The notes under the pieces are model-generated. The model did no database searches, was not told where the DNA came from, and saw only the letters and a list, made by a program, of their open reading frames with translations. Below, one piece after another: positions 39,100-56,751 of a DNA stretch of 64,000 nucleotides. The position numbers and the translations under genes are program-made. Positions within the stretch are counted from its first letter, which is position 1, and each line of letters starts with the position of its first letter. The stretch is from Citrus sinensis (Eukaryota; Streptophyta; Magnoliopsida; Sapindales; Rutaceae): contig NC_068559.1 in NCBI RefSeq assembly GCF_022201045.2, forward strand, positions 29,519,501-29,583,500, written 5' to 3'.

Positions 39100-40692
39100 T
39101 CAGACACCCTTTCTGCCAGAGTCAGATTTGGTCAAAGATCTAAGCCTCACTAAGAAATTAGCTTTTGTCCCCTCTTTCCGCTTCTTACTTCTATTTCCAT
39201 ACTTGCCCCCAGGCGATGAGTCCCAATTCTCCGGCGATCTCACTACCACCACACTCTCCGGCGATCTCGTTATCACCAGTTCATCGCACTCCATCACCTC
39301 CCCGCCAGATAAGATTTTCGCTTGCATTGCTGATACCACCTCCTTCATTGCCAAATCAACGTTGCCTCTGTTTCTCAACAGAACCTCCCCAATTTGAGCT
39401 GGCGTCAAGGCCCCACCTGCCCTTATGCAACTCTCGACCACATCAAATAGTGCATGATGAGACTCGATTCCAAGATAGTTCTTCGCTAAGACCTTGAACG
39501 CATGTGGCCCGCAGGTGCCAAGACTAACATGCACGTCCATGCGCCCACACCTAATCAGTGCCGGATCCACACTATCCCTGTGATTTGTAGTAAACACTAT
39601 GATCTTCTCCTCGCTACAGCACGACCACAGGCCATCAGTGAAGTTCAGTAGTCCTGACAGTGTCACCCTTCCGCTCTCTTCTCCGTTATTATTATTATTA
39701 TTGCCACAAGTAGAAGAAGCAATCCGCGAGCCCATCTCCTTTATTGATGATGATCTTTTCGTTTTTGCAGTAGTACTAGTATTACTACTCTTTAACATTC
39801 TGTCAGCTGTCAGATCAACTGAGCAGTCTATGTCTTCAATTACAATGATGGAACGGTTTGTAGTCTGCAGAAGCAATGCTCTGAGCTCTGAATTGTCCGT
39901 AACTTTTGTGAGTTCAAGATCATATACGTCGTAGCAAAGATAGTTAGCCATGGCAGCAATCAAACTTGATTTGCCAGACCCTGGTGGCCCGTAAAGCAAG
40001 TAACCGCGTTTCCATGCACGTCCAACTCTGTGATAGAACTCTTTCCCATTAGCGAATGCCGTCAAATCCTCCGTTATTTGCTTCTTAAGTTGAGGCTCAA
40101 GTGCCAGAGTTTCGAAGGTGGAAGGGTGGCGAAATGGGACAGAAACCCAGCCTGAGTCGTACGAGCCGTGGCCGTTGTTAGTGAAGAGCCTTCTCTCACG
40201 AGAAACGCGCTCAAACTCTTCAGCACGTGAGGTGACGTGATCGAGGTAGGCTGATAAAAGGGTTTGGCGGTGTCGTTTTGGTAGCTTGAGAGTGAAGCTA
40301 CGTTTTTCCTCTACGGAGTCTTGCACAGTGTCAACATGGTGCGTCCAGGAGAGACTGTGACCACTGAAAGAGTCGTGGACAGTGTGGTTGGGTGCAACAG
40401 TGAAGGAAATCCGATTGGAGGATCTAGAACGAGATAGGGTGAGGCGGCGGCACGTGCTGGATCCTGCGGGGTTGACAGAGTTGAGATAGAGGTTGACGTG
40501 GCGGTAGAGGTCGTTGACGTCGACGCCGCAGTAGCCGTTGAACTCCGGGATCTCGAAGTAGGAGTAAGGACTGAAGAGGTCTTGGAGAGATTCATAGAAG
40601 GAGTGGAGGAGTGAAAGGAGCTGTGAGGGTAAAACGTTTTGGAGGACGGTGAGGAGACCCAAGAATGACCACATTTGTGATAATATCTCCAT
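39100..40692 (-). CDS. AAA-ATPase, plant ASD/BCS1-like family (530 aa)
   Basis: This is an intronless frame. The N-terminus (about 1-30) is hydrophobic and probably a membrane anchor. It is followed by the plant AAA-type ATPase N-terminal domain (YFEIPEFNGYCGVDVNDLY) and the family linker SVPFRHPSTFETLALEP. The AAA module has Walker A GPPGSGKSS at about 235-243, Walker B SIIVIEDIDC at 281-290, the family insert SGLLNFTDGLWSCC, sensor-type VFTTNH and the arginine-finger region DPALIRCGRMD. Inside the module is a low-complexity Ser/Thr/Asn insert (about 300-338, six Asn in a row). It resembles At4g25835/At5g57480-type proteins, which are BCS1-related ATPases of mitochondria or ER, several of them stress-induced. 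The substrate is unknown. It is complete for the family. Confidence 0.93.
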   Translation of the reverse strand: MEILSQMWSFLGLLTVLQNVLPSQLLSLLHSFYESLQDLFSPYSYFEIPEFNGYCGVDVNDLYRHVNLYLNSVNPAGSSTCRRLTLSRSRSSNRISFTVAPNHTVHDSFSGHSLSWTHHVDTVQDSVEEKRSFTLKLPKRHRQTLLSAYLDHVTSRAEEFERVSRERRLFTNNGHGSYDSGWVSVPFRHPSTFETLALEPQLKKQITEDLTAFANGKEFYHRVGRAWKRGYLLYGPPGSGKSSLIAAMANYLCYDVYDLELTKVTDNSELRALLLQTTNRSIIVIEDIDCSVDLTADRMLKSSNTSTTAKTKRSSSIKEMGSRIASSTCGNNNNNNGEESGRVTLSGLLNFTDGLWSCCSEEKIIVFTTNHRDSVDPALIRCGRMDVHVSLGTCGPHAFKVLAKNYLGIESHHALFDVVESCIRAGGALTPAQIGEVLLRNRGNVDLAMKEVVSAMQAKILSGGEVMECDELVITRSPESVVVVRSPENWDSSPGGKYGNRSKKRKEGTKANFLVRLRSLTKSDSGRKGV

Positions 40693-43074: not shown

Positions 43075-43896
43075 TTTTTTTTTTAAGAGTGCAAATTGCA
43101 AATTCACTAAGACAACTGCAAGGATCACATAGTTAAACCAAAGAAACATGTCACTTCAACTTGAGAAATCCAGTTCAACTGAGAAACGGTACGAAATGGA
43201 AAATAATAAACTAGACATGGCTATGTTATTTTGAGGCAGCAAATATCTTAGATTGTTGCTTCCAGGAAAGCTCTTCCTGGTTGACGATCAGCCAAAGGAC
43301 CATGACATCCGAAGAGCTTGGCATTCATACCATCTGGGACAATCCTGTTCTCTGAATTCCACCTTAGATAATCAGCACGGCTGAACTTGGTAAATCCCCA
43401 TTTCCTGCTGACAATAATCTTTTGACGAACAGGAAACTTGAACTTAGCACGGCGAAGGGCCTCCTGAGTAGGGTTGGCAATGGGACGGGATGGGATGGGA
43501 TTTACCAATCCCAGTCCCATCCCATATATGCAAATGGGATGAAAAAACATCCCAATCCCGTCCCTATATTTTTTTTGGGACAAAAATATGTCCCAATCCC
43601 GTCCCAAAAGAGATGGGATCCTGCGGGATCCCATCCCAATTGGAAAAATTTCCATTCTTAATCAGTAATGAGACGGGATGGAACGAAATTTTTCAATCCC
43701 ACTCCCATCCCGCATTTGTAATTGGGATAAAAAAAGGTCTCAATTCCGTCCTTAAATTTTTTTTATGGGACAAAAATATGTCCCAATCCTGTCCTAAATG
43801 GGATGGGATCCCGCAGGATCCCATCCTATCGGAAAAAATTGCCATCCCTACTCCTGAGCATGGTGGCTATTACTATCCTTGCAACAGACATAAAGC
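43075..43896 (-). pseudogene. RPL10: 5'-truncated processed retrocopy of 60S ribosomal protein L10 (RPL10)
   Basis: On the minus strand the reading contains the RPL10 C-terminal part: [55 protein letters not shown] and [12 protein letters not shown], stop at 43248. No introns interrupt it. A 3' UTR of about 160 bp follows and then a poly(A) tail (T10 at 43075-43084). Flanking copies aatgagatttatttc (43060-43074) and aatgggatttatttc (43897-43911) differ at one base and look like a LINE-type target duplication. The copy starts at about residue 150 of the ~220-residue parent and carries a small deletion near its 5' end that shifts the frame. It is split by a hAT-like element at 43469-43850. It is non-functional. 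Confidence 0.88.
43469..43850. mobile_element. hAT-like MITE (382 bp) made of two tandem half-units
   Basis: The ends TAGGGTTGGCAATGGG and (from the right) TAGGGATGGCAATTTT are inverted. A perfect 8-bp duplication ctcctgag flanks it at 43461-43468 and 43851-43858. The interior is two diverged copies of a unit of about 190 bp, each with GGGAT/ATCCC palindromic segments and a shared ggacaaaaatatgtcccaat stretch (near 43578 and 43769). It lacks coding capacity. The minus-strand open frame reaching in from the RPL10 copy is chance. Confidence 0.88.
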
Positions 43897-48807: not shown

Positions 48808-48812
48808 CTAAT

Positions 48813-48911
48813 TGTTGAGTGTTAGAAAATGCATATTTATAAAGGAGAAAACCGTCATTTTACATTCCAAGTCTTACTAACAACCCTTACTTTTATGTAT
48901 TTAACCTTCTT
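48813..48911 (+). repeat. 5' LTR remnant (99 bp)
   Basis: This is identical, base for base, to 54302-54400 of the 3' LTR. At 48911/48912 the sequence jumps to pol (ttcgtctcc instead of the LTR's gtgattt), so the deletion removed about 1.29 kb of LTR and several kb of internal sequence. Only a base or two of microhomology is at the junction. Confidence 0.95.
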
Positions 48912-50295
48912 TCGTCTCCATTTTGACACAATTACAGAATCATTACCATTGAATGAGTCATTTCCAGATGAACAATTAATGAATGTGGAAGTATTACCTT
49001 GGTATGCTGATATAGTTAATTATCTTGTTACAGGTAAACTTCCAGAGCATTGGACCAAGCAAGATAAGGCTAAATTCTTTGCAGAGATAAAGAATTTCTT
49101 TTGGGATGACCCGTATTTGTTCAAGTATTGTGCAGACCAAATTGTTAGACGATGTGTCCCAGAAAGTGAAATTCAGAATATCCTTTCATTCTGCCATGAA
49201 CAAGCTTGTGGAGGCCATTTCAGTGCTAAGAAAACAGCAACTAAAGTTTTACAATGTGGTTTTTATTGGCCAACTATATTTCGAGATGCTTACACTTTCT
49301 GTTCTTCATGTGATAGGTGTCAACGAATGGGGAGCATTACACGAAGGAACATGATGCCACTAAATCCAATTTTAGTGGTTGAGATTTTTGACGTATGGGG
49401 TATCGACTTCATGGGACCCTTTCCCCCGTCTTTTGGCCATCAATACATATTGGTTGCTGTTGACTACGTATCGAAATGGGTAGAAGCAATTCCATGTAGG
49501 ACCAATGATCACAAGGTGGTGATAGCATTTTTGAAAAGCAACATTGTTTCACGCTTTGGATTCCCTCGAGCGATAATCAGTGATGGTGGTGCCCACTTTT
49601 GTAACAAAGCATTCAAAGCTCTTTTGACAAAGTATTCAATCACACACAAAGTGGCAACTCCGTATCATCCGCAAACCAGTGGCCAAGTTGAGATCTCCAA
49701 TCGAGAAATAAAGCACATATTAGAAAAGACGGTGAGGCCGGACAGAAAAGATTGGTCATTAAGACTTGATGATGCCTTATGGGCATATAGAACGGCTTTC
49801 AAGACCCCGATTGGGATGTCACCCTACAGGCTAGTGTATGGAAAAGCTTGCCACCTACCTGTGGAACTCGAGCATCGTGCATATTGGGCCATCAAGAAAT
49901 TCAATTTTGACATGCAGCAAGCCAGCTCAAAAAGAAGATTACAGCTGGCAGAACTTGAAGAAATTCGCAATGATGCATACGAAAATGCCAAGATTTACAA
50001 GCAACGAATGAAAGTCTTCCATGATAAGCAAATTATGAGAAAATCGTTCACTCCAGGTCAGAAAGTGCTTTTATTCAATTCTCGCCTGCACCTATTCCCA
50101 GGTAAGTTACGCTCTCGTTGGTCTGGCCCATTTATTGTTCATACTGTTTTTTCACATGAGGCAATTGAAATTAAAGACCCAAAGAACGGTGTCACGTTTA
50201 AAGTTAATGGTCAAAGATTAAAGCCATATCTAGAGTACCAACCACATGAAGAAGACACCGAAATAAATTTGAGTGACCCACCAAATTTGAATTGA
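48829..50295 (+). CDS. Retrotransposon pol, integrase part (chimeric N-terminus)
   Basis: This is an open frame of 488 codons. The first 28 residues are read from LTR sequence and are not native. From about residue 29 it is Athila-type pol downstream of RNase H. The zinc-binding H-H-C-C set is His123, His130, Cys161 and Cys164. The integrase catalytic triad is Asp193 (GIDFMGPF), Asp252 (IISDGGAHF) and Glu288 ([12 protein letters not shown]), with the expected 35-residue spacing. The conserved tail reads [39 protein letters not shown] and [10 protein letters not shown], typical of GPY/F-type C-termini. There is no stop or frameshift across about 1.4 kb, so integrase may be intact although the element lacks reverse transcriptase and a native start. 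Confidence 0.93.
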
Positions 50296-50796: not shown

Positions 50797-51354
50797 ATGG
50801 ACAGAAACGAGATTCTAGCGAAGCTTCACAAGCGATTCCCTTCACTTCCTCAGAATGCCCTCCTTACGATCTATAAAGCTCGGTCCGAACGCATGCGATT
50901 ACTCATGAGGAATAACATACCTGCTGACATCCGTTGGTTAATCGAGGTTAAAGTACGATCGGCAGGTGAGTTACCTCCAAAATTTATTGCATACATGCCT
51001 GGTTGTGGTAAATGAAATTATGCAAGAAAACAACGAGCTCGAAGAATTTCTGTTGCTTGTCATAAGTGTGCCAGAATGAGTTGCCATAAAAACCCATGTT
51101 CTTTAGGAATGATGTCTGATAACAGGGAAGATAAGATTCAATTCATTAGGGATGGCTTGAATAAGGAGTCATTGGATGATATCCTTTTGTCTCTTGAAAC
51201 GCATCCCAGTGGATATGTGCAAGGAGCGATTCTCCAGTTATGGCCATTATTCCAGAAAGAGCATGCACGATATAGTCTCGGGAATCTGACTATAAACGAC
51301 CCTGTTTGCCAGTTTATAAGAAAACTGGATAGGAAGCCTATCCTCGACCCATAG
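50797..51354 (+). pseudogene. Accessory ORF 2: zinc-motif protein resembling carlavirus-type nucleic-acid-binding proteins, one in-frame stop
   Basis: The frame has 186 codons including the final TAG and is interrupted by a TGA at 51013-51015 (codon 73). The N-terminal part (EILAKLHKRFPSLPQNALLT, then IYKARSERMRLL) is helical and basic. Just after the internal stop comes an Arg/Lys-rich run (NYARKQRARR), then a cysteine motif C-x2-C-x4-C-x4-C (CHKCARMSCHKNPC). This layout, short helical N-part then basic run then cysteines, is that of the cysteine-rich nucleic-acid-binding proteins of carlaviruses and related Betaflexiviridae (Pfam Carla_C4/Viral_NABP), several of which suppress RNA silencing. 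The resemblance is judged by eye and needs a profile search. The C-terminal ~80 residues I do not recognise. Confidence 0.55.
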
Positions 51355-51693: not shown

Positions 51694-52362
51694 ATGGCAG
51701 CTACTCCCAATAGACAATTCAAGAACATTTGTGTGCTTTCTGGATTTACATATGGCAAATATAAAGAGTTCGTTGAGGCAGCCATAGATCTTGGTCGAAG
51801 CATAGCAGCGAGAAAATTACACTTGGTGTATGGAGGAGGTAATCGAGGGTTATCAAAAATGGTCTCAGAAGCAGCTTTTATCAGAGGAAGTCAAGTGTTA
51901 GGCATCATCCCAAGAGTCTTAAAACCATTGGGCAGTTCGTCTGACTCATCAACTGGAGAAGAGTTAGTCGTCTCAGGTATGCAAGAAAGTATAACTAAAA
52001 TGCTTAATCATGCTGATGCTTTTATTTTCCTTCCAGGAGATCTTGCAACACTAGAGGCACTTATCACGCTAGCATCTTGGGCCCATCTGCACATCCACAA
52101 AAAACCCATCGGTTTGTTAAATGTCAATAACTTTTATGATGGCTTTATCGCATTTCTTAACCATGCAATAAAAAACTATTTCATTCCTGCTAATGTGAAA
52201 AAACTCTTTATTTGTGCTCACACTGCTACTGATCTACTTGATATGTTACAAGCTTATAAACCGGAGCCAGACCCCTGGACCTTTGTGTTGGAGCGACCAA
52301 ATAATGATGGTAACAGTAGCCGTAGTAAGAAGTACAAATTAGATTTAACTCTCCGCCTGTAA
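51694..52362 (+). CDS. Accessory ORF 3: LOG-like (cytokinin riboside 5'-monophosphate phosphoribohydrolase family) with degenerate catalytic motif
   Basis: This is an intronless open frame of 222 residues starting MAATPNRQFKNICVLSG. LOG enzymes release active cytokinin bases from their nucleotides. The Rossmann fold of the family is plain: NICVLSGF at 11-18, LHLVYGGGNRGLSKMVSEAA at 42-61, QVLGIIPRVL at 67-76, HADAFIFLPG at 106-115, LASWAHLHIHKKPIGLLNVN at 126-145. The signature PGGxGTxxE appears as PGDLATLEA (114-122): two glycines and the catalytic Glu are replaced. The Arg of the preceding helix is also absent (MQESITKM). Enzyme activity is therefore doubtful. An upstream ATG at 51655 would add 13 residues. 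Cellular LOG genes have several introns, so the copy was probably taken up through RNA. Confidence 0.85.
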   Translation: MAATPNRQFKNICVLSGFTYGKYKEFVEAAIDLGRSIAARKLHLVYGGGNRGLSKMVSEAAFIRGSQVLGIIPRVLKPLGSSSDSSTGEELVVSGMQESITKMLNHADAFIFLPGDLATLEALITLASWAHLHIHKKPIGLLNVNNFYDGFIAFLNHAIKNYFIPANVKKLFICAHTATDLLDMLQAYKPEPDPWTFVLERPNNDGNSSRSKKYKLDLTLRL

Positions 52363-54301: not shown

Positions 54302-54640
54302 TGTTGAGTGTTAGAAAATGCATATTTATAAAGGAGAAAACCGTCATTTTACATTCCAAGTCTTACTAACAACCCTTACTTTTATGTATTTAACCTTCTT
54401 GTGATTTAATTACATGTGTTTTATTTTAATTAAGTATTTTATGTATTTTAGGGGCATTATAGTCATTTCACAATAAAGGAGAAATCAGACGGCAAAACTG
54501 ACATCACTTTTGAACTCAGGACGGTAAAAAACCTTAGGAGGAGCATAAAAGGAAAAATGGCACTATTCACATGTACGGTACTATTCACGTGTATGGTACT
54601 GTATACGTTACTGTTCATGACACTGTTCACATAGACGGAT

Positions 54641-54912
54641 GATGACGTGGCATTGACCGATGATGTGGCATTGACTGATGAGGTGTCACGATCCTGTTGA
54701 ACTAAAATTCTTATGTACTGTTGATGGTGACGTGGCAGCATATCAGTGGACGAAAAATATCGCGTACGGTGCATGCATCACACAGGATTATTTTCAACCA
54801 AACCGCGTTACTGTTCATCCGGGTCAAATCGCGTTACTGTTCAAAGTCGGGTCAAACCGTGTTACTGTTCATCCGCGTGGTCAAACCATGGACTGTTGAC
54901 TGATGACGTGGC
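54641..54912 (+). promoter_or_regulatory. Three TGACGTGGC bZIP-type boxes in the LTR
   Basis: gatgacgtggc occurs at 54641-54651 and 54902-54912 and tgacgtggc at 54728-54736, with a one-base variant (gatgatgtggc) near 54660. ACGT-core boxes of this form bind plant bZIP factors. The GATGACGTG form matches the unfolded-protein-response type site. No binding is shown here. Confidence 0.5.
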
Positions 54913-54970
54913 GCAATCCTGAGCGTCCAAACTGTTTTTAATCCGATGGCCATGATTTACTCCATGTATC

Positions 54971-54980
54971 TATAAAAAGG
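54971..54980 (+). promoter_or_regulatory. LTR TATA box
   Basis: TATAAAAAGG in the middle of the LTR is followed about 30 bp later by a C-rich then AT-rich start region. This is a typical pol II core promoter of a long plant LTR and marks the U3/R border near 55005. Confidence 0.65.
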
Positions 54981-55813
54981 GGGCCTCTCCCCCCTAATTT
55001 GATATCTCTGAATCTATTTTTGGGATCCATTTTCTGTAATTCCCTCTCCATCTTGTATTTTCTTCGTATTTTAATAAATTCCCATTTTGCCCCTAGTTCA
55101 ATTATGAGTGGCTAATTTTCTTTCAAGCTTGGGTTGAAGGTGAAGTCTCAACATGTGTCATGGGCTTAATTTGGTAAATTTATTTTCTCTTCCCCTCTAG
55201 TTTTTGTGGATGTTTTGACTTCTCGTCGACAAATAATACTAATCTTGTCTAGTACCGCCTTGGTTACACCGGCTCTCTAGTATAAGGTTATTATTATTTG
55301 GCACGATAAGCCCTTAACACCATATTGATTAGAGCGTGGTTCATGAGGTGTGGATTCCCCCCTCATGATTTAATTGGTATTAATAAGGAATATTTAGTCC
55401 ATGATGCATGTTAATACGGATCCAGATACCCAAGTACGTCAATTTAATAGATTTTCTCTTCAATTTATTCTCTCAATTGCAATTGCAATTTTAGAATTTA
55501 TTCTCGCCATTTTAATTTAATTATTAGCATATTCCAAATCATTTCCACCATAAATCCAACTACCCATTTACAAAATTAATTCTATATATAATTAAAATCC
55601 ACCTCCTCGTGGGATCGACACTCGTCACCATTAGTCTATACTACAATAGATTCGTGCGCTTGCGAGTACATTAAAATTTGCACAACACTAATGTCTAATG
55701 TAATCATCAAAGAAAGAATATGCATGTAATGTGTAATGTATATAATATATATATATTCTCCCCATTGGCCATTTCCACTATCACCACCACCACAACTCTG
55801 ACCTCCCATTAGT

Positions 55814-55822
55814 TATATATAA
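55814..55822 (+). promoter_or_regulatory. Probable TATA box of the lipid-transfer protein gene
   Basis: TATATATAA lies 75-83 bp upstream of the ATG at 55897 and only 127 bp downstream of the retrotransposon end. Confidence 0.5.
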
Positions 55823-55896
55823 CTGCTATCTCCTTTAACTTCTAAGTTGCTAAAGCATAAATCCCTATCTCGATCTTGATTAAAGTTAGACTGGCA

Positions 55897-56751
55897 ATGG
55901 GCCTGCACAACTTATTAGTTACAATTATAATGCTGGTCATAGTATTAATGATGATAAGCAGTAGTGGAACAATGGCGGATAAAGCAAAAGACAGAGAGGA
56001 GTGCACAAATCAGCTGGTAGGGCTTTCTACATGTTTGCCTTATGTTGGGGGAGATGCGAAAGCTCCAACACCAGACTGTTGCAGTGGTCTCAAACAAGTC
56101 CTGAAGAATGACAAGAAGTGTTTGTGTGTTATTATTAGAGATATGAATGATCCAGAGCTTGGTCTTAATATTAATGTTACACTTACGTTAGGGCTGCCTT
56201 CGGTTTGCCATGCACCTGCCAACGTTTCTCAATGTCCTGGTTTGTAATTTTATATACGTTAATTTATATAATCTGTGCACTACTGTTGATGCCCGCCCAA
56301 TCTCTGATCTTTAACTTAAAATTAGTAATAATATACACGCAGATGCATATGGATGTTAATTTGATAAATTTAACCATATATGTGGATGATGCAGCACTTC
56401 TACACTTGGATCCAAATTCCCCAGAAGCTCAAGTATTCTATCAATTTGGTAGAAACCCCAGTAGTCCTCACACTGTAATTACAAGTACCCCAACTCCTAG
56501 TCCCACAGCCGCAGGTACAAATATATGTTAATGATAATAATTAGGATTAATTGTCGATCATCTTTTTCACTTCAGTTCTTATATCAGGTGGAGGAGGGAA
56601 GAACCCCATCAGTGCTGATTCTAGCAGCAACAATAGGGGAGCTCGTGTTCAAGGGACAAGTGACGGTTGTTGCATTGGAAATAGATGGTCAGGATTGGAG
56701 ATTGTTTCTGGGGTGGTGTTGTTTCATGTCTATTTATATAAAATTATATAA
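55897..56751 (+). CDS. GPI-anchored non-specific lipid-transfer protein (LTPG/YLS3-like, 208 aa)
   Basis: I read three exons, 55897-56239, 56395-56514 and 56588-56751, with GT-AG junctions that join in frame. The start [20 protein letters not shown] is a signal peptide. The mature part has the eight-cysteine pattern C..C..CC..CxC..C..C ([38 protein letters not shown]), which folds around a lipid-binding cavity held by four disulfides. A Pro/Ser/Thr-rich linker follows ([11 protein letters not shown]), then a hydrophobic C-terminus ([16 protein letters not shown]) suiting a GPI-anchor signal. Such proteins act at the outer plasma membrane or wall, for example in cuticle lipid export. A start at the ATG is chosen over an in-frame TTG upstream. 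The retrotransposon sits 209 bp upstream. Confidence 0.88.

Follow-up and report, generated by a model that had tools for sequence, protein, structure and literature searches.

In the course of analysing a 64,000-nucleotide stretch of the Citrus sinensis genome (assembly GCF_022201045.2, contig NC_068559.1, positions 29,519,501 to 29,583,500 of the forward strand; hereafter, the window), we found that an open reading frame (ORF) of the LOG family of cytokinin-pathway proteins is a standing part of a high-copy family of Ty3/gypsy long terminal repeat (LTR) retrotransposons. The ORF, which lies beside a second ORF resembling viral nucleic-acid-binding proteins (NABPs), is probably an accessory gene that encodes a LOG pseudoenzyme and may act in trans on the host. 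The data suggest that the two ORFs form an accessory set and were not carried along by accident. Extra ORFs of plant retrotransposons have long been listed, mostly without functions. The role of the present ORFs is directly testable, because the fold is known, the prediction is clear (a dead enzyme under live selection) and hundreds of natural copies are available.

The product of the LOG-like ORF in the window matched Pfam family PF03641 (Lysine_decarbox; E = 1.7e-25) and Arabidopsis LOG3 (PDB 2a33; E = 4.8e-43). In the Corynebacterium enzyme (CgLOG), Arg99 and Glu122 are the proposed catalytic residues, the phosphate is held by Gly116, Gly118 and Thr119, the adenine is contacted by Met96, Lys100 and Glu121, and the prenyl side chain by Met96, His97, Lys100, Glu125 and Trp129 (PMC4979012). 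Alanine mutants of the CgLOG residues that bind adenosine monophosphate (AMP) or act in catalysis, S19A excepted, are reported to lose nearly all activity (PMC4979012), and Glu122, one of the two proposed catalytic residues, is described as fully conserved in LOGs (PMC8234997). All 19 element copies compared after being located by their flanking DNA (flank-picked copies, see below) carried Ala at the catalytic Glu122 (CgLOG numbering) as part of a uniform set of replacements (H97Q, K100I, G116D, G118A, E122A and E125T) and retained Met96, Arg99, Thr119 and Glu121; Trp129 was retained in 18 of the 19, the remaining copy having its stop codon there. The same pocket changes were found in proteins of a second subfamily (B) and in one protein, L032, of a third (C). 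Furthermore, the element motif PGDLATxEA replaces PGGxGTxxE, and Glu or Asp at position 122 occurred at only 3 genome places in an element context. Among full-length element ORFs, Gln97 was present in 59/59, Arg99 in 58/59 and Ile100 in 58/59, the window copy, with Ser at the conserved Arg99, being the sole such case among 59 LOG ORFs. PDB entry 5zbk differs from 5zbj at the same Glu, with Ala in its place, and is presumably an engineered inactive form.

Fourteen pocket positions were invariant among six element proteins, compared with 127 of 185 positions overall (the window copy and the partial L060 being left out), although the permutation p value of 0.004 is optimistic, because the six sequences are related and the positions neighbouring. 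A single change of the pocket, maintained ever since, would explain this most simply, and the element LOG is most likely a conserved LOG-fold pseudoenzyme, predicted to be inactive. An earlier note on this DNA had proposed that the captured gene might alter host cytokinin signalling; the replacement of the catalytic Glu and of several residues that contact the substrate leaves cytokinin activation unsupported. An intact cytokinin-activating enzyme was rejected on the strength of E122A and the replaced phosphate and substrate residues.

To avoid choosing intact ORFs, the flank-picked copies were located by the DNA just upstream of LOG. Of 1443 candidates in this search, 40 were scored, each with an identity to the window of at least 99% in that upstream DNA, and the LOG stretch was taken from 20 of the 39 other than the window itself. 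The 19 left out include at least 11 with an open LOG frame, and the 20-copy sample therefore leans towards broken copies; most of its stretches start a few codons inside the LOG frame. One of the 20 was mostly deleted, five carried a premature stop, one had a one-base insertion near the end that shifted the frame in the last codons, and one had lost its start codon. The remaining 12 showed no defect in the stretch read, with the start codon visible in only five.

Among 19 flank-picked copies, the pairwise ratio of replacement to silent substitution rates (dN/dS) was 0.21. We prefer this value over the 0.136 obtained from 33 full-length subfamily A ORFs, because 30 of the 33 were chosen by protein score; 25 subfamily B ORFs, likewise score-chosen, gave 0.23. 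Between subfamilies, dN/dS was 0.15-0.25 at silent divergence (dS) of 0.60-0.99. Singleton variants comprised 35 replacement, 5 stop and 22 silent changes, whereas variants shared between copies comprised 11 replacement and 24 silent changes (four multi-base codon variants excluded), against a neutral expectation of 2.4-3.3 replacements per silent change. Thus, replacements were rarer among shared than among singleton variants (Fisher p = 0.003 with stops, 0.009 without), and the LOG gene appears to have been constrained while its lineages were active and to have drifted after insertion. The earlier note had held that copies with dN/dS near 1 would point to a single passive capture; the values among element copies are far below 1, and the single-capture test fails because of those between subfamilies at the dS given above. 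Copy number together with dN/dS led us to reject a single passive capture.

Across the 299.7 Mb of genome searched, the exact motif coding PGD-x-A-T-x-E-A had 839 matches, and the reversed-pattern control had none. No internal stop was present in 149 of 150 LOG frames, these being the best 150 of 2106 candidates and hence a set favouring intact frames; their number speaks against a chance frame in the window. Three subfamilies, A (the window type), B and C, could be distinguished, with 72-76% protein identity between them. On contig C1, a primer-binding site (PBS) was located upstream on the same strand for 39 of 86 LOG motifs, at a distance of 7.2-7.6 kb in 36 of the 39; the other 47 had no exact PBS match within 3-11 kb and are therefore truncated, diverged or of another layout. 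Relatives with the ORF in the same place are thus plentiful in this Citrus genome, with a constant layout in most of those that have the PBS, and the view in the earlier note that the element family keeps the frame is upheld by the hundreds of copies, the shared PBS spacing and the purifying selection.

One relative, L082, carries a 1.4-kb 5' LTR, a PBS, a gag frame, protease, reverse transcriptase, RNase H and the start of integrase. The assignment to Ty3/gypsy follows from the TG..CA LTR ends, the 5-bp target-site duplication and the integrase in the window, and from gag followed by protease, reverse transcriptase, RNase H and integrase (start) in L082. In L082, the sequence TGGCGCCATTGCCGGGGA is located 6 bases downstream of the 5' LTR; it may correspond to the tRNA-Asp PBS that would mark the Athila lineage. 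The family probably belongs to this lineage; when the L082 Gag was compared with Pfam, Retrotrans_gag alone was above the cut-off and ATHILA ORF-1 (presumably PF03078) was not found, a model that may not mark the whole lineage. Around position 3229 of L082, gag and pol share one reading frame with a single stop between them, where either a read-through arrangement or decay is possible.

The second ORF, of about 185 codons, lies between integrase and LOG and is conserved in subfamilies A and B. It was free of stops in 27 of 30 subfamily A copies, which were chosen by LOG score and independently of the second ORF; the window copy, with one premature in-frame stop at 51013-51015, is among the three broken. 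For the second ORF, comparisons within A gave a dN/dS of 0.19, and comparisons of A with B gave 0.25-0.28 (dS 0.91-1.01). As judged from the sequences, LOG is one half of a two-ORF 3' module. A basic stretch, similar to a nuclear localization signal (NLS), directly precedes a C-x2-C-x4-C-x4-C pattern, and in Pfam searches at E up to 1 the families Carla_C4 and Viral_NABP (PF01623/PF05515; curated cut-offs of 20.9 and 23 bits, respectively) were matched by 8 of 8 members (best E = 1.5e-4) and 6 of 8 members (best E = 5.2e-5), respectively. L058 (110 residues, truncated) scored above both curated cut-offs and L008 (156 residues) above that of Carla_C4, while two full-length B frames reached 20.4 and 20.6 bits for Carla_C4 and 19.8 and 20.0 bits for Viral_NABP. 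None of five scrambled controls (three reversed, two shuffled) matched either family.

Viral NABPs are reported to bind nucleic acid, and some of them, with an NLS and a zinc finger, to suppress RNA silencing (PMC12115993, PMC12172455). The predicted product of the second ORF resembles the cysteine-rich NABPs of carlaviruses and allexiviruses, as well as mandariviruses, in having a basic NLS-like stretch before the Cys cluster, with the Pfam match falling there. It differs from them in its location, between the pol and LOG genes of a retrotransposon, and in that the scores of most members are under the cut-offs; the likeness is seen in the matched region. A scan of IMG/VR viral contigs with the NABP-like alignment yielded 20 pattern matches, none of which was confirmed; tblastn of the ORF against phages returned no relative, and a PDB search returned a single match (E = 0.085) to an enzyme subunit, taken as chance. 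AlphaFold2 models of the two ORFs had mean predicted local distance difference test (pLDDT) values of 37.6 and 44.6. Several A copies have yet another short open frame (L004:187-477, L014:185-475), the third, which counts about 77 codons from its first Met and includes a repetitive charged stretch; for the window copy, L001, no such frame of at least 70 codons was listed.

Genome-wide, 647 of 996 PBS matches are immediately followed by GGTAAGT, a consensus splice donor. On C1, the donor was present in 38 of 39 PBSs with a LOG motif downstream, compared with 25 of 46 without one. Such a PBS-adjacent donor would fit retrovirus-like spliced messages for the 3' ORFs.

We propose that the products of both 3' ORFs have a trans effect on the host in the course of the element cycle and that they may be made from spliced messages, via the PBS-adjacent donor of subfamily-A-type copies. 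RNA binding by the NABP-like protein may weaken silencing, as is the case for its viral relatives, whereas the LOG-like protein may, without hydrolysis, bind a nucleotide or form pairs with host LOG. In the latter case, it could serve as a sponge or a dominant-negative partner, dampening local cytokinin activation or another nucleotide signal. A more pointed version, which we put forward tentatively and regard as doubtful, is a two-gene anti-host module comprising a cysteine-rich protein of the plant-RNA-virus type, likely a silencing suppressor, and a LOG pseudoenzyme that would be a decoy or dominant-negative partner for host nucleotide or cytokinin signalling. If true, such a module would mean that genes have been exchanged among plant RNA viruses, the hormone genes of the host and retrotransposons, and confirmation of the NABP relative would tie retrotransposon success to suppression of host silencing.

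Several observations weigh against the proposed reading. With an identity to the window of 99% or more over the search stretch, the flank-picked copies form a young set. Only two copies of subfamily C were read, L032 and the fragment L060; the N-terminus is incomplete or broken in both, and L060 has Pro at position 122. When the subfamilies are aligned, position 19 varies between them, and this variation, together with G116D, which should disfavour a 5'-phosphate, argues against a simple AMP sponge. The sole PBS-LOG pair on C1 without the donor is a B-type copy, so that the donor is shown for the A-type layout only, and the sequence preceding the LOG start revealed no conserved splice acceptor, the AG positions differing between A and B. 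In the case of the second ORF, 6 of the 8 members are under the Pfam cut-offs, and only short frames, two in number, exceed them; the full-length A frames, of which there are four, have 14.9-16.4 bits for Carla_C4, clearly under 20.9 bits, and their matches alone are unconvincing because one reversed control gave an unrelated weak zf-RING-like match at E = 0.0096.

Furthermore, the retention of Arg99, Thr119, Glu121 and Trp129 leaves room for a different activity, and the element LOG could be active with changed chemistry or a changed substrate, for example as a nucleotide phosphatase or another N-glycosidase, altering cytokinin or nucleotide pools directly. The invariance of the pocket is in line with such an enzyme, as is the report that some wheat LOGs mainly convert isopentenyladenosine monophosphate (iPRMP) to isopentenyladenosine (iPR) (PMC11593424). 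However, the wheat LOGs of the iPR group are described as keeping the conserved residues of the critical motif (PMC11593424), whereas Glu122 is Ala in all 19 flank-picked copies and the phosphate-loop glycines are replaced, which makes an active enzyme unlikely. Alternatively, the LOG protein might serve the element itself, in RNA packaging, in the particle or in nuclear import, with no relation to cytokinin or nucleotides and only the fold retained. The loss of catalytic and cytokinin-pocket residues and the close linkage with a nucleic-acid-binding-like ORF would agree with this role, as would a C-terminal tail, ending LD[LV]TLRL, that is conserved outside the LOG core; the ligand-pocket positions, however, are among the most conserved, even if folding could explain that, and we consider a service to the element somewhat improbable. 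Finally, a functionless captured LOG, amplified as a passive hitchhiker inside a successful element, would account for the defects in 8 of the 20 flank-picked copies and for the state of both C copies, but is very hard to reconcile with the low dN/dS across subfamilies, the contrast between singleton and shared variants, and the occurrence, in both A and B, of open frames of full length that share the motif changes. We regard the accessory pseudoenzyme gene as the most probable reading.

In a phylogenetic tree from which the short host models L086, L087 and L090 were dropped, the element LOG proteins formed one clade (100/100), addressing a point raised in the earlier note; the clade has a long branch and is not nested in a plant LOG group. 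The tree is unrooted, and its three-way split into element, plant and bacterial LOGs does not settle the source, nor the capture of a host LOG transcript proposed in the earlier note. In the approximately unbiased (AU) test, a grouping of the element with 5zbj, the bacterial protein, was rejected (p = 0.016), as was one with the LOG3 group (p = 0.045); the test did not reject the element with the LOG8 group (p = 0.22), with plants as a whole (p = 0.65) or outside plants (p = 0.57). We tentatively favour an old plant-type source, as suggested by the best structure matches, which are plant LOGs (150.6 and 138.5 bits, compared with 129.3 bits for the best bacterial chain). The LOG frame is intronless, as the earlier note had described it, whereas the host LOG genes have split coding regions; the absence of introns is what capture from mRNA would leave. 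The separate long branch led us to reject a recent origin from a present-day citrus LOG.

Nine host LOG genes were found by pattern, with rough exon models. They have MH[QE]RK at codons 96-100, with His97, Arg99 and Lys100 in 9 of 9 and Glu122 in all 7 whose stretch reaches it; three apparent departures at position 114 or 116 (L088, L090, L091) fall at rough exon joints. The element proteins belong to the same family as these genes, AtLOG3 (2a33) and AtLOG8 (1ydh), sharing Arg99, Thr119, Glu121 and Trp129, and element copies are 41-45% identical to a 107-residue piece of AtLOG3. They differ from plant LOGs in the lack of introns, in MQERI in place of MH[QE]RK, in the altered PGGxGTxxE motif and in their separate, long-branched clade. 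The canonical-motif pattern matched one genome place, a host gene, introns splitting the motif in the other host genes. Identical letters coding PGGLGTLE followed by Glu or Asp are present at G000:C1:8962996 and C5:21026778, outside the nine host LOGs, and possibly represent another LOG-like family. A scan of genome contigs with the LOG alignment yielded one distant bacterial match from 77 pattern matches, which was not used.

Two Athila-like elements were reportedly found to be similar to LOGL4 by Steinbauerova et al. in 2011. A YgdH (LOG) domain has been reported in LTR-retrotransposon consensuses of C. sinensis, C. clementina and P. trichocarpa, with Steinbauerova et al. 2011 cited for such ORFs (PMC9289625). 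The Citrus elements of that report, which share a LOG-family ORF with ours, are very probably of the same kind; the relevant part of the report gives the presence of the domain only, to which the present analysis adds the copy number, the subfamilies, the evidence of selection, the catalytic loss and the NABP-like ORF. The same source describes orchid Ty3/gypsy elements with an N6-methyladenosine (m6A) demethylase domain (PMC9289625), likewise a fixed accessory domain in a plant Ty3/gypsy family; the orchid domain is reported to be functional, whereas the captured enzyme of the citrus element is predicted to be inactive. In a term search of a review of extra ORFs, LOG, cytokinin and citrus did not come up (PMC7264820). 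Among the publications considered, mostly as titles and abstract openings and hence weak evidence of absence, none reported that an element LOG has lost its catalytic residue or that a plant retrotransposon carries a carlavirus-type ORF. Thus, LOG in Citrus LTR retrotransposons is already in print, and the catalytic loss and the NABP-like ORF, on this weak evidence, appear to be new.

The window copy is a deletion derivative, because its 5' LTR is cut to 99 bp and runs straight into integrase (Table 1). The remnant abuts integrase directly, the matches of both to a relative overlapping by 8 bp (48904-48911), and the listed ORF 48829-50295 is chimeric, starting within the LTR remnant and consisting of integrase for the rest. 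Gag, protease, reverse transcriptase and PBS are all absent from this copy. The structure agrees with the reading in the earlier note of LTR ends and a 5-bp target duplication, of integrase (PF00665 and PF17921 matches) upstream of LOG in the same orientation, and of an open LOG-like frame between pol and the 3' LTR; both protein motifs quoted there, LVYGGGNRGL and KKPIGLLNVN, are present in the ORF.

Table 1. Features of the element copy in the window, with the second ORF of two relatives
Feature	Position	Strand	Remarks
Left target-site duplication	48808..48812	.	CTAAT
5' LTR remnant	48813..48911	+	first 99 bp only; identical to 3' LTR start
Integrase end of pol	48904..50295	+	zinc-binding H2C2 and rve core
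Second extra ORF, viral NABP-like	50797..51354	+	basic stretch, then C-x2-C-x4-C-x4-C
LOG-like ORF	51694..52362	+	222 codons, ATG to TAA
LOG codons 96-100	51979..51993	+	MQESI in window copy
LOG codons 114-122	52033..52059	+	PGDLATLEA; LOG active-site motif is PGGxGTxxE
3' LTR	54302..55687	+	TGTTGAG...CACAACA, 1386 bp
Right target-site duplication	55688..55692	.	CTAAT
Second extra ORF in relatives	L012:595-1158; L055:2433-3080

Within 55688-56247, a lipid-transfer-protein-like gene (LTP_2, E = 9.8e-18) lies about 0.2 kb downstream of the element, and because of this distance the element LTR could affect its promoter. Elsewhere in the window, two 98-nt direct repeats with 190-nt spacing, 83% alike, are located at 43566-43853, and an AAA-ATPase of the At3g28540 type (Pfam AAA, AAA_assoc and AAA_lid_At3g28540) is encoded by a single-frame gene at 39100-40692 on the minus strand.
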